A DNA stretch of 64,000 nucleotides, taken from the NCBI GenBank assembly GCA_018712435.1, contig DVGZ01000041.1:1-64000 (forward strand). Reading direction: 5' to 3'. The position numbers and the translations under genes are program-made. The notes under the pieces are model-generated. The model was not told the origin of the DNA. It saw only the letters and a list, made by a program, of their open reading frames with translations, and made no database searches. Within the stretch, counting starts at the first letter, position 1. Each line of letters starts with the position of its first letter. This DNA comes from Candidatus Caccousia avicola. GTDB lineage: Bacteria; Bacillota; Clostridia; Oscillospirales; Acutalibacteraceae. Below, piece after piece: positions 16,901 to 63,562 of the stretch.

Positions 16901-17683
16901 TCAGCCCGCCAGTGTTTTGTCGATTGCGTCAATGGCAATCTGGTTCTGCTCCTCGTGGAAGGTGACCGCGGCCGGATCGTCCGCCAGCAGATCATCGGGA
17001 GCAAAGGCGCCGAGCATGATGAAGAACACATAATCGCCCTTCTGGTACACCTTGGAGGCGTTGACTTTGGGGATGTTCATGGGGTACTGCATGGAGTTGT
17101 TGACCAGATCGTCACGGTAAGCGTTGAGCGCGGAGACAACGTTTTCCGCTTTGCCCTCCTTGGCGTGAACGGCCACAAACGTGTCAACCTGTGTGCTCAT
17201 CATGGCCACCTGTCCGATCGCTTCCGTATAGTCGTCGGCGTTCAGGCCAAAACGGGTCTTGAGATCCTCGGCCGTCAGATCCATGGAGGGAAGATAGTTC
17301 TCACCATAGGCGTTTTTCACAGCGTCCAGAACGGTGCTCAGAGCCACGGTGCTGGAAGCGGAAGCGTTGTTGGAAGAGGGAGTCTGGCTTGCCTGCGGCG
17401 CGGAGGACGGAGTGGAGGGCTTCTCAGAGGGAGCAGCCTGCGAAGGAGCGGCTTCAGAGGAAGCGGCTTCGGAAGATTCCGCCTCAGAGGACGCAGCCTG
17501 CGAGGATTCCGCCTCGGAGGATTCTGCTTCAGACGATTCCGCCTGCGAGGATTCCGTCTCGGAGGACGTGATGGCAGAGGAAGCGTCGGAGGATGCCGTA
17601 TCCCCGCTGCTGGTGCAGGCGGCGAACAGGGAAGCGCACATGGCGCAGACGAGCAGGGCGGCAATCAGTTTCTTTTTCATCAT
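16901..17683 (-). CDS. DUF4358 lipoprotein with Ser/Glu/Ala-rich linker
   Basis: 260-aa lipoprotein. The signal peptide begins MMKKKLIAALLV and ends in lipobox LFAAC (Cys near residue 23). A ~90-residue linker of repeated Ser/Glu/Ala units (SSEAE, SSQAA) probably spans the wall. The C-terminal ~130 residues match the DUF4358 pattern (mature part from YGENYLPSM to GDYVFFIMLG), a domain often found beside MBOAT and DHHW genes in Firmicutes; its function is unknown. I start at the paired ATGs (17683) because the 28 residues upstream precede a normal signal peptide and are out of character. Confidence 0.82.
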   Translation of the reverse strand: MMKKKLIAALLVCAMCASLFAACTSSGDTASSDASSAITSSETESSQAESSEAESSEAESSQAASSEAESSEAASSEAAPSQAAPSEKPSTPSSAPQASQTPSSNNASASSTVALSTVLDAVKNAYGENYLPSMDLTAEDLKTRFGLNADDYTEAIGQVAMMSTQVDTFVAVHAKEGKAENVVSALNAYRDDLVNNSMQYPMNIPKVNASKVYQKGDYVFFIMLGAFAPDDLLADDPAAVTFHEEQNQIAIDAIDKTLAG

Positions 17684-17937
17684 TTGGAAATCTACCTTTC
17701 GTATGAAAATAAATAAATAAAAAGCGATGGTATGAATATCGCGGATCCACGGAAGTTTTTGGCACAAAAATTCTGGTTTTGAAATACATTGGTACTAGAG
17801 TAACGGCGGAATCCTGCGGCCTGCCGTGCGGGCAGAAAGGTTCCGAAGGCGCGTTCCCGGGACGTGCGGCGGACCCGGCGGCCGTGGGCTCCGGCGGTAC
17901 TAACCCCCGATTTGTGTCATGCTAGGAGGATTCAGCT
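17684..17937. other. Intergenic region with GC-rich structured leader
   Basis: 254 bp between the divergent DUF4358 gene and the interrupted gene. The left ~100 bp is AT-rich. From about 17790 to 17915 the sequence turns strongly GC-rich with several possible nested hairpins and two GGTACTA words (17801 region and 17896 region). An AGGAGG ribosome site precedes ATG 17938. No clear sigma-A promoter was found for either gene. Confidence 0.4.
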
Positions 17938-18027
17938 ATGGATGATACCAGTTTTGTTTCGACGGGCTGCTCGTCGAATTGCTTTAAGGAAGCGGTCTGC
18001 ATCGATGCGATGCGTGTGTATGACAGC
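17938..18027 (+). CDS. Interrupted conserved Cys-rich gene, 5' part
   Basis: First 30 codons of a gene whose remainder lies at 19936-20703, beyond the inserted element. ATG 17938 follows AGGAGG. The segment ends ...CIDAMRVYDS and joins seamlessly at TGCAGTGA to DKDCLEDLRVYF, giving VYDSCSDKDCLEDLRVYF, a continuous conserved-looking block. In the inserted state the frame runs into the element and stops at 18291 (117-aa chimera overlapping the recombinase gene on the other strand). I recall the family as conserved uncharacterised Cys-rich proteins of Clostridia; no function is known to me. Confidence 0.8.
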
Positions 18028-18035
18028 TGCAGTGA
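18028..18035 (+). repeat. attL core (TGCAGTGA)
   Basis: Left copy of the 8-bp direct repeat bounding the element; in frame it encodes Cys-Ser of the split gene. Identical to 19936-19943. Serine recombinases typically leave such short identical crossover cores. Confidence 0.85.
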
Positions 18036-18039
18036 ACCG

Positions 18040-18066
18040 CAACCTTCCGGTTGTCACAGCTGTGAC
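18040..18066. repeat. Hairpin and palindrome just inside attL
   Basis: CAACC-TTCC-GGTTG (18040-18053) abuts the perfect 14-bp palindrome GTCACAGCTGTGAC (18053-18066), which overlaps the recombinase stop codon. Possible recombinase binding sites or a weak terminator. Confidence 0.5.
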
Positions 18067-19529
18067 GCGTCGGGAGAGCAGCGCAGCTGCACCTCAAAGC
18101 AAACATGGTTTCCGTCCGGGCCGCGTTCGCTCCGGCAGAGAATGGAGCGGACCAGAAGACGCCAAAGCCTGTTTTCTTCGGCGGGAGACGCGCCGTTCAG
18201 CGCATCCTCCGCCGTCAAGGTTTTTTCGTCCCGCTGGTTGTCCGTCGCGGTGGACAGGCGGCTGAGCTGCTCCGATAGTTTTTCCCGCTGAGTAAGCAAT
18301 ATGCGGCGGCGTTCTTCGTAGAGAGCAGGGGAGTAAATCCCGGCTTCCAGCAGCGTGCACAGCCGTCCTTCCTGCGTGCGCAGCCGTTTTTCGGCATCCA
18401 GCAGAAGGCGTTCGCGTCTTTGATCGCAGGGATCAGGCGTGTCGGGCTGGATGGGGATCCGGCGAAGCAGGGGGCGTAAAGCGTTTCGAAGCGCGTCCGC
18501 GGCGTCGGAGAAATTGCAGGAGGGACAGCACCCGGCCCGCTCACACAGCAGATAGCCGCCCGGCCGGTTGGCGCGGGGGCGAAGCTGCATCAGACCGCCG
18601 CAGTTGGCGCATCGGATCAGGCCCGCAAAGGGGTTGACCAGCTCGCGCCCGGTGCCGGACGGCTTGCTTCTGGACTGCATGCGTGCCTGCACGCGGTCAA
18701 ACAGCTCCTGCGCGACGATGGCGGGATGTTTTCCCCGCGTGATTACCCATTGTTCCCGGCTGTTCTCGATTTTCCGGCATCCGGGCGATTGCCCGCCGGA
18801 ACGGAGAAAACGGCGGCGGTTCCAAATCACGGTCCCTGTGTAAACGGGGTTGCGCAGAATGTTCATGACAGCACCGCGCGTGAAGGATTCGCTCCGCCTG
18901 GGATGTGCGCCGCAGGCATTGAGAAAGGCCGCGATTGCCGGGGCCCCCTCGCCGTTTGCATAGGCGAGGAACATCTGACGGACGTAGACGGCCTCGTCCT
19001 CCTGAATTTTGAGCGTCGGCAGACGGCCTTCCCTGGTTTTTTCATACCCATAGGGGGCGTTTGCCAGATACCCGCCGTCAGCGGCGGTACGCTCCACGCC
19101 GCGCCGCATCCGTTTCTTGATCAGCTTGAGCTCCTTGCGGGCGAAGAAGGTTTGCAGCTCTGTGTAATCCTCGTCCATTTCATCGCGCAGATCATACGTT
19201 TTCTGCGGCGTGATGATCCGCACGCCCGCTTCCTTGAAGGTTTCCAGGATCACACCCTGCTGGCTCATGGTGCCGCGTCCCAAACGGTCAATGTCCATGC
19301 AGAGGACAGCTTCGCACGCGCCGTCTCTTACGTCGCGAAGCAGGCGCAGCATTTCCGGTCTCGCGTAGAGATCCTCGCCGCTGACGACCTCCTCGTAAAC
19401 GCCGCAGATCGTCAGCTGCATCGAACGTGCCGTCTCCTCCAGCGTTTCCCTGTGGCGGCGCAGGGTGTCTCCGGTGGTGTCGGACAGATCCTCCGCCCGG
19501 GATTTGCGCAGATACATACAGGTTTTCAA
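18054..19529 (-). CDS. Large serine recombinase of the intervening element
   Basis: 491-aa large serine recombinase (SpoIVCA-like size). N-terminal resolvase domain: catalytic serine in YLRKSRAED (S10), then VVSGEDLYARPE and the conserved MDIDRLGRG. A recombinase domain follows (LANAPYGY, about 150-290), then a zinc ribbon (CANCGG...LCERAGC, about 312-337) and a C-terminal coiled coil (about 360-440). It should cut both att sites, link via Ser and reseal. TTG start at 19529 has AAAGGAGG eight bases upstream, itself just below a sigma-E-like promoter. Its 3' end is only 19 bp from attL. Confidence 0.95.
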   Translation of the reverse strand: MKTCMYLRKSRAEDLSDTTGDTLRRHRETLEETARSMQLTICGVYEEVVSGEDLYARPEMLRLLRDVRDGACEAVLCMDIDRLGRGTMSQQGVILETFKEAGVRIITPQKTYDLRDEMDEDYTELQTFFARKELKLIKKRMRRGVERTAADGGYLANAPYGYEKTREGRLPTLKIQEDEAVYVRQMFLAYANGEGAPAIAAFLNACGAHPRRSESFTRGAVMNILRNPVYTGTVIWNRRRFLRSGGQSPGCRKIENSREQWVITRGKHPAIVAQELFDRVQARMQSRSKPSGTGRELVNPFAGLIRCANCGGLMQLRPRANRPGGYLLCERAGCCPSCNFSDAADALRNALRPLLRRIPIQPDTPDPCDQRRERLLLDAEKRLRTQEGRLCTLLEAGIYSPALYEERRRILLTQREKLSEQLSRLSTATDNQRDEKTLTAEDALNGASPAEENRLWRLLVRSILCRSERGPDGNHVCFEVQLRCSPDASQL

Positions 19530-19556
19530 GCTCCCTACCTCCTTTACAGAAGATAG

Positions 19557-19580
19557 GTATGAGAAAACGGAGGGAAATAT
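19557..19580 (-). promoter_or_regulatory. Sigma-E-like (mother-cell) promoter of the recombinase
   Basis: On the minus strand: AATATT-type -35 (ATATT, 19580-19576), 14-bp spacer, CATACCTA -10 (from 19561). This fits the Bacillus sigma-E consensus kmATATT-N14/15-CATACAnT in the ATATT and CATAC cores and in spacing. The predicted start is about 20 nt before the TTG codon. No sigma-A promoter is visible here. Confidence 0.6.
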
Positions 19581-19710
19581 TTTCGTTTCCCGCCTTGAAT
19601 ACCGGCGGAAAAAAGCGAATGTTACAGGAAAAGAAAAAATTTTTTCGCGGCTTCTGCTCTGTCATAAAAACCAAAGGACGGCGATTATCTTATATAAGTG
19701 GGAAGCGCGC

Positions 19711-19739
19711 AGAAAAACCGCCATGCGAAATACGGCGGA
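19711..19739 (-). terminator. Minus-strand hairpin upstream of the recombinase
   Basis: Read on the minus strand: CCGCC, 11-nt loop, GGCGG, then TTTTTCT. It would shield the recombinase from transcripts entering the element from the right. A similar 5-bp CCGCC/GGCGG hairpin lies at 19590-19608. Confidence 0.5.
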
Positions 19740-19775
19740 ACGGGCTTCCTTTTTATCTTTAAGGAGGCGGTATCC

Positions 19776-19943
19776 ATGCAGCCGGAAAAAGGAAAAAGAA
19801 ACCCGAAGGGGGAGAAAGAGCGGCGGAGAAGGCCGGTGTTTTGTGTGACGCTATTGCCGCCCGCTCAGGAGGAAAAGCAGGAGGAATGGCTTTGCGAGCT
19901 GGAGCGCGAAGCGGCAAACGTGATACGCGGGAGGTTGCAGTGA
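19776..19943 (+). CDS. 55-aa ORF ending in attR; candidate directionality factor
   Basis: Small ORF with a perfect AAGGAGG (19761-19767) eight bases before ATG 19776. The protein is basic at the N-terminus (KGKRNPKGEKERRRR) and acidic/helical at the C-terminus (EEKQEEWLCELEREAANVI). Its TGA stop is part of the attR core, so the stop is also kept after circularisation. It is the only element gene besides the recombinase. Small charged proteins next to att sites often act as recombination directionality factors; that role here is inference from position and size. No homologue recognised. Confidence 0.6.
   Translation: MQPEKGKRNPKGEKERRRRPVFCVTLLPPAQEEKQEEWLCELEREAANVIRGRLQ
19936..19943 (+). 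repeat. attR core (TGCAGTGA)
   Basis: Right copy of the 8-bp direct repeat, in the same codon phase as the left copy (TGC AGT GAt). It also holds the TGA of the 55-aa ORF. Confidence 0.85.
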
Positions 19944-20703
19944 TAAAGACTGTCTGGAAGATCTGCGCGTCTACTTCACACAGGACAAAAACGAGCTGAT
20001 CGCAAACGCAACAAGCGCCCACCTTCGGAGCGTGGACGTGATCACGGTTTACCTGAACCTGGAACCGGTGCCGTTCAACAAGGGCTTTTATTCGGTCGAC
20101 ATGACGTTCTTCTTCGACGTCTGCCTGGACATATGCTCTGCTCCGGCCTCCGCGTCCGTGGTGGTAAGCGGCATTGCTATTTTCAATAAGAAGGTAATCC
20201 TTTACGGCGGAGAAGGAAACGTGAAGTCCTTCAGCTCCGATAACGCCTGCGAATCGGTCGATCCGGCCTGCAGCCGCGTGCTGCCCAAGGCCAGCGTCCA
20301 GGTAGCGCAGCCGATCGGTCTGGCCGCCTATGTGAAGGACTGCTGCTCGCACTGCGACGCCTGCTGCCATATTCCCGACGGGATCTGCCGCCGGTACGGC
20401 GGTGGGTTCGACTGCAACTGCCGCCGCGGTATTTATATCGCGGTGGGGCTGTTCACCATCGTGCAGATTGTGCGCAATGTGCAGATGCTAATCCCGACGT
20501 ACGATTTCTGCATCCCGGAGAAGGAGTGCACCACCTCCACCTCCGACAGTCCCTGCGATATGTTCAGCCGCATTGATTTCCCGACCGATGAATTTTTCCC
20601 GCCCAAGGCCGGAGATTCCTTCTGTGAGAGCCATTGCTCCTGCTGCCAGACGAATCAGAATACTTCCTCGGGCTGTTCCGGCCGTTCTTCCTGCTCCAGA
20701 TAA
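19936..20703 (+). CDS. Interrupted conserved Cys-rich gene, 3' part
   Basis: Remaining 255 codons of the gene begun at 17938; intact product 285 aa. As it stands, the first ATG-like start is GTG 20032, giving 223 aa without the DKDCLEDLRVYFTQ block. The protein has a long beta-rich N-terminal part (EPVPFNKGFYSVDMTFFF, FNKKVILYGGEGNVK), a Cys cluster (CCSHCDACCH...FDCNCRRG) in the middle, a hydrophobic segment (GIYIAVGLFTIVQIV), and a Ser/Cys-rich tail (CESHCSCCQTNQ). No signal peptide. The disulfide-prone tail would suit a spore-coat or surface protein, but that is inference. Confidence 0.82.
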   Translation, partial: CSDKDCLEDLRVYFTQDKNELIANATSAHLRSVDVITVYLNLEPVPFNKGFYSVDMTFFFDVCLDICSAPASASVVVSGIAIFNKKVILYGGEGNVKSFSSDNACESVDPACSRVLPKASVQVAQPIGLAAYVKDCCSHCDACCHIPDGICRRYGGGFDCNCRRGIYIAVGLFTIVQIVRNVQMLIPTYDFCIPEKECTTSTSDSPCDMFSRIDFPTDEFFPPKAGDSFCESHCSCCQTNQNTSSGCSGRSSCSR

Positions 20704-20720
20704 GAACAACAGGGACGCTA

Positions 20721-20754
20721 AAAGGGGCTGCATCCATATGGATGCAGCCCCTTC
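20721..20754. terminator. Bidirectional terminator after the interrupted gene
   Basis: Perfect stem AAGGGGCTGCATCC / GGATGCAGCCCCTT with 4-nt loop, between two convergent genes; T/A tracts are short but on both sides. Confidence 0.85.
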
Positions 20755-20776
20755 TTGCTGTTGCCGGAAGATACGC

Positions 20777-21289
20777 TTAGTCGAGATTCTTGACCGGGTT
20801 CACACGGGTTACGTTGACCTTGCTGCCGTCGGTTCCCTCGACGTTGCCGGTGTACATCACGGACACCTTATCCCCGATTTTCAGGCCGTTCGGCATGTTG
20901 TCGAGATTGGTATCCTCACCGATGGTGAAGGTAATGGAGCCGTCGTTGGTTTTGAGGACAAAGGTGTTCATGGTGGCGTCCTCAATGGTACCCTTCATCA
21001 CATGCTCCATGGGGGTGGGCTCGGCAGACTCCGCCGCCTGGGAAGCCGCCTCGGACGCTGCCTCAGAGGCCGCCTCGGAAACCGCTTCGCTTGCCGTCTC
21101 CGAAGGGGTCTGCGCCTCAGACTCCTCCTTCGTCTCCGATTCCGTGCCGGAGGATGCCGTGGAGGAAACGCTTGTCCCGGAGGACGTGGTGGAACTGGTC
21201 GAGTCGGTATTTCCACAGGCAGCCAGCGTGGCGAGCATCGCGCAGAGAAGAAGCACTGCTGTCATTTTTCTCAAAATCTTGTTCATCAT
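20777..21289 (-). CDS. Small lipoprotein with low-complexity linker
   Basis: 170-aa lipoprotein: signal peptide with lipobox LAAC (Cys about residue 25), then ~65 residues of Ser/Thr/Glu/Ala repeats (SEAASEAASEAASQA). The C-terminal ~75 residues (MKGTIEDATMNTFVLKTND... and GDKVSVMYTGNVEG) look like a small beta-barrel of OB or DUF5666-like type. Function unknown. Its linker resembles that of the DUF4358 lipoprotein 3.5 kb away, but the end domains differ. ATG 21289 is one of two adjacent ATGs. Confidence 0.75.
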   Translation of the reverse strand: MMNKILRKMTAVLLLCAMLATLAACGNTDSTSSTTSSGTSVSSTASSGTESETKEESEAQTPSETASEAVSEAASEAASEAASQAAESAEPTPMEHVMKGTIEDATMNTFVLKTNDGSITFTIGEDTNLDNMPNGLKIGDKVSVMYTGNVEGTDGSKVNVTRVNPVKNLD

Positions 21290-63235: not shown

Positions 63236-63562
63236 ATGAACGACGCATTGAAGCATTTGTATGATACCATCCTTTCCAGAAAAGGGGAACAGCGGGAGGG
63301 ATCCTATACCTGTTATCTGTTTGAAAAGGGAACGGATAAGATCCTGAAAAAGTGCGGAGAGGAGTGCAGTGAAGTGATCATCGCCGCGAAAAACGGCGAC
63401 AATCATGAGACTGTGCTGGAAATTTCCGACTTGCTGTATCATTTGATGGTGCTGATGGTCAATGAAGGAATTTCACTGGATGATGTGGAGCAGGAGCTGG
63501 AGAAACGGAGTGAAAAAACCGGCAATCTCAAGCAGTTCCATCAGGTAGACAAAAATACATGA
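63236..63562 (+). CDS. hisE: Phosphoribosyl-ATP pyrophosphatase
   Basis: 108-aa MazG-like helical pyrophosphatase, second step of the pathway. [12 protein letters not shown] and [12 protein letters not shown] hold the Glu/Asp metal ligands. Separated from hisI by 71 bp; GGAACAAGAGG site before ATG 63236. Followed by a strong terminator. Confidence 0.95.

Follow-up and report, generated by a model that had tools for sequence, protein, structure and literature searches.

A cysteine-rich gene conserved in Clostridia is split in the stretch of Candidatus Caccousia avicola DNA analysed here (the whole 64,000 nucleotides, hereafter the window), and from the sequence we conclude, with a probability of roughly 0.78, that the 1,908-bp segment splitting it is a skin-type intervening element. 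Excision is predicted to be exact and would probably take place in the mother cell of a sporulating bacterium, restoring a gene of 285 codons. It occupies positions 18036–19943 and cuts the gene inside codon 33. When the flanks are joined at the repeat TGCAGTGA, present at 18028–18035 and 19936–19943 with a spacing of 1,908 bp, they form an open frame of 285 codons with 26 Cys residues; without joining, the 5′ part reads on into a truncated open reading frame (ORF) of 117 amino acids that ends at a host-frame stop codon (18289–18291). The initial annotation of this region had proposed the repeat as the border of the 1,908-bp segment, a single Cys-rich frame of 285 residues upon joining and a large serine recombinase inside, and all three proposals hold. 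The repeat is the only 8-mer common to 17938–18100 and 19851–20100 (a third copy lies far away at 63365), and the recombinase is borne out by Resolvase and Recombinase domain matches.

The features of the split gene and the element are listed below; pN/pS is the ratio of non-synonymous to synonymous differences and attP the phage attachment site.

17938–18035, + strand: 5′ part of the split gene, codons 1–32 and the GA of codon 33; pN/pS 0.000 over the last 16 codons in 5 split species
18028–18035, + strand: left copy of the repeat TGCAGTGA, with the predicted crossover GA at 18034–18035
18036–19943, no strand given: intervening element of 1,908 bp, recognised by the split, the joined frame and the attP symmetry
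18036–18055, no strand given: left inner attP arm, an inverted repeat of the right arm, 15 of 20 positions pairing about GA
18054–19529, − strand: large serine recombinase of 491 amino acids, TTG start, YLRKS motif, identified by domain and PDB matches
19776–19943, + strand: 55-codon ORF with its TGA stop inside the right repeat, a candidate recombination directionality factor by size, position and selection
19922–19941, no strand given: right inner attP arm, forming the palindrome about GA
19936–19943, + strand: right copy of the repeat TGCAGTGA, with the predicted crossover GA at 19942–19943
19944–20703, + strand: 3′ part of the split gene, remainder of codon 33 to the stop, under purifying selection

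The split gene and its homologues

Homologues were fetched with the 3′ part from GTDB species genomes; 232 were confirmed and the best 80 were used, a set biased to close relatives (L-numbers denote compared loci and G-numbers compared genomes, G000 being the window's own). Alignment through DSCSDKDCLED, on which the initial annotation had staked its proposal, is continuous in one frame in 62 of the 80 loci, and the other 18 break exactly at this junction. Intact loci read V or I, then YDSC, one or two further residues and KDC at the junction. The 5′ part lies within the fetched locus in 10 of the 18 split cases, and for the remaining ones a whole-genome search placed it on the same contig in 2 (11.5 kb and 40.5 kb away) and on other contigs in 4, and did not find it in 2.

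Removal of the insert gives an open joined frame in all 13 elements for which both ends were available. In 12 of the 13, the joined flanks align without a gap across the junction to intact relatives, at 72–87% identity; the alignment of the thirteenth (L144) was made at a wrong boundary coordinate, its joined frame having been computed at the right one. The 13 inserts range from 1,763 to 11,502 bp; divided by three, these lengths leave remainders of 0, 1 and 2, and it is therefore exact removal, not length, that preserves the frame. The window's element is indeed one of the smallest, as had been suggested, but not the smallest of all, since that of L009 is 1,763 bp. Every one of the 13 contains an open orthologous recombinase frame of 482–509 codons, and five further split loci have such a frame beside the break.

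Both parts of the gene are under purifying selection although the gene is split in all five genomes examined in the window's genus. There, pN/pS is 0.000 for the last 16 codons of the 5′ part and 0.06 for the first 60 codons of the 3′ part, the synonymous divergence (dS) of the 3′ part being about 0.3–1.4; in a second group of six the values are 0.08 (5′ part) and 0.10 (3′ part). On the host tree of 81 rows, well-supported branches require the split to have been gained or lost at least 8 times. Intact species sit next to split ones in several places (L014 and L013, L034 and L025, L021 and L019 with L022, L016 and L020), so scarless loss or gain is frequent and the split comes and goes without destroying the gene. 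In sister species with an intact gene, the element is absent and there is no scar.

Attachment sites, recombinase and the small reading frame

Across genera, the left boundary of the elements reads TG[CT]AG[TC]GAA and the right boundary GA[TC]AA[AG]GA. Because GA is the sole sequence always shared by both ends, it is the predicted crossover. The 8-bp repeat, which the initial annotation regarded as the boundary, is complete in the window but in only part of its genus (L008 and L010 have less), and across genera only its GA is shared. When the inner ends are circularised they form a palindrome about GA, with 15 of 20 positions paired in the window. Over 12 elements the mean is 11.8 of 20, as against 5.4 for shuffled sequences and 8.5 for arms swapped between elements, and of the 13 centres tested in each element, GA alone scored best in 8 of the 12 and shared the top score in three. 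We also ran a blind attachment-site scan, which scored every crossover pair with a shared dinucleotide within 40 bases and made no use of protein information. The GA join ranked at the top in 9 of 13 elements at this insertion point (site A), in 6 of them without a tie; for the window it was first with 15 of 20, the runner-up scoring 13 and the mean being 5.0 over 441 pairs. Such symmetry is described as typical of serine-integrase attP sites (PMC5595907). As with skin-type elements, a single coding sequence is split, exact removal restores the frame of its homologues, and the element brings its own intact site-specific recombinase and matching attachment sites.

The recombinase matches the Resolvase (E 7e-22) and Recombinase (E 2e-22) domains and a zinc ribbon (E 2e-4, under the Pfam cut-off), and thus has the three domains and the catalytic serine of large serine recombinases and SprA-like integrases, the zinc ribbon at a score below the curated cut-off. 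At E ≤ 0.001 its PDB sequence relatives were limited to two YokA (SprA) constructs, YokA being the SPbeta integrase, and one of the two is fused with YotN; the YokA match covers residues 6–446 with E 6.9e-33. In seven aligned recombinases, the catalytic motif YLRKS with its serine and the motif RLGR are invariant, the residue preceding RLGR being D in four and Q in three. Ten pairs within the window's genus gave ratios of non-synonymous to synonymous substitution rates (dN/dS) of 0.08–0.37, and the recombinase is thus under purifying selection. The site-A enzymes cluster in the recombinase tree, but the cluster includes L002, another recombinase of the window's genome, and only 20% of bootstrap trees keep site A undivided.

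The 55-codon ORF is preceded by AAGGAGG, and the right repeat ends with its stop codon, TGA. Counterparts occupy the corresponding position in L007, L008 and L009, and L010 has one of lower similarity. Over its last 36 codons, pN/pS between the window and L007 is 0.24, compared with 1.14 and 1.17 in the other two frames, and values of 0.53 and 0.44 were obtained against L009. We infer that the 55-residue protein may be the directionality factor of the element, a function proposed for SprB (PMC4191935) and shown for CD1234 (PMC5025042) and GirX (PMC5595907). Among the other site-A elements, L023, L025, L028, L032 and L124 have short conserved ORFs, of about 50 and 77–90 amino acids, which may be directionality factors of another type.

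Phage relatives, other insertion sites and known systems

The same codon is occupied in G059 (L012) by about 40 kb of DNA with terminase, portal, head, tape-measure and endolysin genes. Among the best 80 IMG/VR relatives of the recombinase, 10 have half of the host gene at their edge: 7 with a 3′ half starting at model position 34–35, and 3 with a 5′ half ending at 39, one of these weak (E 0.003). The prophage and viral loci show that phages use this codon for attachment and that the window's element is a minimal relative, the elements at this one insertion point spanning 1.8 to 40 kb. The element is likely derived from a prophage that used the codon as its bacterial attachment site and was reduced to an excision module.

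Elsewhere in the class, the gene is also split near model position 73 in G134 and, among the genomes inspected, near position 159 in G016, G032, G047, G093, G129, G173, G195, G230, G247 and G297. The recombinases at these two sites are only 25–30% identical to the site-A family. The blind scan restored the family sequence as sole best in L118, L119, L134, L135 and L138 and as a tie in L132, and did not restore it in L117, L129, L130, L131 and L133. Five of the loci at these sites (L117–L119, L129–L135 and L138) carry short recombinases of about 281–283 amino acids.

The host gene has no sigma-factor match and sigK lies elsewhere in the genome, so the element is not skin proper. In the relative G002, sigK itself is in three pieces on one contig (L235, G002:C56:65500-80000) with gaps of about 6.0 and 6.2 kb; each gap ends in a recombinase, and the best palindromic joins restore an in-frame sigK at both, although another join ties on score at the second gap. 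In G003 and G004 two sigK parts lie on different contigs, cut at the first G002 point. Only the 3′ part of sigK was found in the window's genome (L234, G000:C124) and in G001, at distances of 155 and 119 bases from the end of a contig, a position that fits a split. The gene is whole in G011, G029 and G042.

These results lead us to lean towards a broader interpretation, whose parts are meant to hold jointly. An uncharacterised sigma-K-type Cys-rich gene, conserved across Clostridia, would be a docking hub; three or more of its codons would have served as entry points for phages and other serine-recombinase elements; at one of these codons some would have been domesticated into minimal "DNA introns" consisting of a recombinase and a directionality factor; and with sigK also split in the genus, twice in one relative, two or three successive programmed excisions would be needed before the mother-cell programme is complete.

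Among known systems, SPbeta in spsM of Bacillus subtilis resembles the window's element in having a SprA-family serine integrase and a sporulation gene as target, the latter only likely for the window. SprA and the 58-residue SprB suffice for excision during sporulation, and an engineered "SPmini" has been made (PMC4191935); the gene content of SprA plus SprB matches that of the window's element, with a partner of 55 residues here. SPbeta is, however, a full prophage in a different gene, whereas our element is naturally 1.9 kb long, its partner is a candidate and its excision is predicted. Skin in sigK (B. subtilis; C. difficile with CD1231 and CD1234, PMC5025042) is likewise a case of a large serine recombinase in a split gene with an open joined frame and a mother-cell logic, the latter predicted for the window, but the host gene is another one, the window's element is far smaller, and the genus has separate sigK elements. 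Gin in gerE of B. cereus is also a non-phage element, with the serine recombinase GirC, GirX and a 9-bp core; as described in PMC5595907, it has 28.6 kb, 31 genes and three recombinases, against one recombinase and one small ORF here. Assignment to the gin type was rejected, one recombinase being present instead of girA, girB and girC. Yin in yabG of C. botulinum (PMC10747680) shares with our element a clostridial host, a sigma-K-controlled gene (putatively so here) and a recombinase with a candidate directionality factor; it is reported there as a putatively functional prophage of one isolate, whereas the window's element belongs to a family found at one codon in many genera.

Sporulation and alternative explanations

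The host gene is likely a sporulation gene, judging from its distribution and upstream sequences. The pattern AC-N13-17-CATANNNT, which we take to be the sigma-K consensus, occurs upstream of 53 of 60 intact homologues versus 8 of 281 other genes of the same loci, where shuffling expects 1.9, the pattern having been fixed after some of the upstream sequences had been viewed. Among 343 genomes of the class, the gene was present in 171 of 255 SpoIVA-positive and 5 of 88 SpoIVA-negative genomes, as called at E ≤ 0.001 with some matches weak and partial and uncorrected for genome relatedness; among the 58 nearest relatives, it was present in 40 of the 50 with SpoIVA. The window's genome has sigma-E- and sigma-K-like genes, with matches below the curated cut-offs. 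Two candidate promoters lie close to or within the split gene:

17764–17791, + strand: conserved block AC N17 AATACATTG, found in all five species of the genus, a possible divergent sigma-K-type promoter, weaker than those of intact homologues
19554–19581, − strand: sigma-E-like promoter before the recombinase, AATATT N14 CATACCTA, p ~0.013 by shuffling, uncorrected for the 13 elements tested

In two genomes the host gene lies about 5 kb (G052:C9) and about 9 kb (G042:C1) from spoIVA. In the window its neighbours, at 16901–17767 and 20777–21289 (both − strand), encode lipoprotein-like products with long Ser/Ala/Glu repeats.

A plausible course of events would be that the recombinase joins the two GA sites, with the 55-residue protein turning integration into excision and its expression in the mother cell setting the time. 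The rebuilt gene would then act late in the mother cell under sigma-K, and the forespore would retain the element.

Besides the late fixing of the sigma-K pattern, several observations weigh against programmed excision during sporulation. The strict sigma-K motif is missing upstream of the gene in the window's genus and in L144, and 3 of the 8 nearest relatives without SpoIVA have the gene, all three being less than 90% complete. Neither a Pfam or NCBIfam family nor a clear fold match was obtained for the host protein, whose putative role in sporulation is hence assigned by association. The sigma-E-like recombinase promoter is not general, since it recurs in L007 (0.027) and none under 0.03 was found in the other 11 elements. 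In the window's genus the recombinase is opposed to the host gene; in the eight remaining site-A elements for which both ends were available (within L019–L041, L124 and L144), the two run in the same direction. In L019 no ATG, GTG or TTG is found within 12 codons ahead of the recombinase motif. As for the attachment sites, one of the 13 centres beats GA in L023, and the GA join was not recovered by the blind scan in L008, L023, L028 and L032, 4 of the 13 site-A elements. Finally, among the best 120 of 2,582 matches in 5.8 billion proteins there was no near-identical full-length protein such as excision would yield, and the near-99% match among them is a split version of 223 amino acids.

That last result is in line with a rival explanation, in which an ordinary mobile element or prophage remnant inactivated the gene, with any excision being rare, unregulated and unrelated to sporulation. 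The use of this codon as an attachment site by serine-integrase elements and prophages, and a split state that comes and goes on the host tree, agree with such a remnant as well. We nevertheless consider it unlikely, because a dead gene would drift, whereas all five genomes of the genus are split at a 3′ dS of about 0.3–1.4 with both parts strongly constrained, and the joined frame is perfect. Gene fission, in which the 3′ part is translated from an internal start, the 5′ ORF makes a separate peptide and excision is unnecessary, appears quite improbable. The 3′ part is conserved and contains five internal in-frame starts between 20032 and 20158, one of which, the GTG at 20038, has GGAG seven bases upstream as a possible weak ribosome site; a single weakly supported start makes separate translation of the 3′ part unlikely. 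Moreover, the last 16 codons of the 5′ part are unchanged at the protein level in 5 split species, the residues encoded before 20032 (KDCLEDLRVYF...), some of the most highly conserved in the family, would be lost, and with inserts of varying length the family sequence is obtained by exact removal only.

Removal at the RNA or protein level, as an intron or intein, would also account for a gene interrupted with precise boundaries, but it is hardly credible for an element that carries a serine recombinase and integrase-like symmetry at its attachment sites. An intein was rejected because of the host-frame stop codon that ends the 117-residue ORF, with no in-frame continuation, and a search of 17700–20900 gave no group I or II intron family in Rfam at E ≤ 1 (three matches were obtained, all under their gathering scores). 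Programmed excision of a skin-type element remains our preferred interpretation, its predicted mechanism being strongly supported by homology and anatomy, and the skin-like nature suggested by the initial annotation is supported by selection, attachment-site symmetry, the sigma-K-type promoters of intact homologues and the clean element-free sister species.

Among the titles and abstracts listed by literature searches that covered few subscription papers and no preprint-server papers, none reported an intervening element in this host gene. The targets of programmed excision named in PMC10747680 are sigK, spsM, spoVFB, gerE and yabG. The compact recombinase and its partner genes, with mapped attachment sites, may become practical tools, and an apparently truncated gene may be whole after excision, which calls for caution in annotation. 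If our interpretation is true, an unrecognised late sporulation gene joins the targets of programmed excision. The family would also provide a natural minimal system and, at one codon, a size series from a prophage of about 40 kb down to 1.8 kb, along which a phage integration module would have become a developmental switch of its host, and its scarless coming and going makes it testable why sporulation genes are favoured attachment sites.

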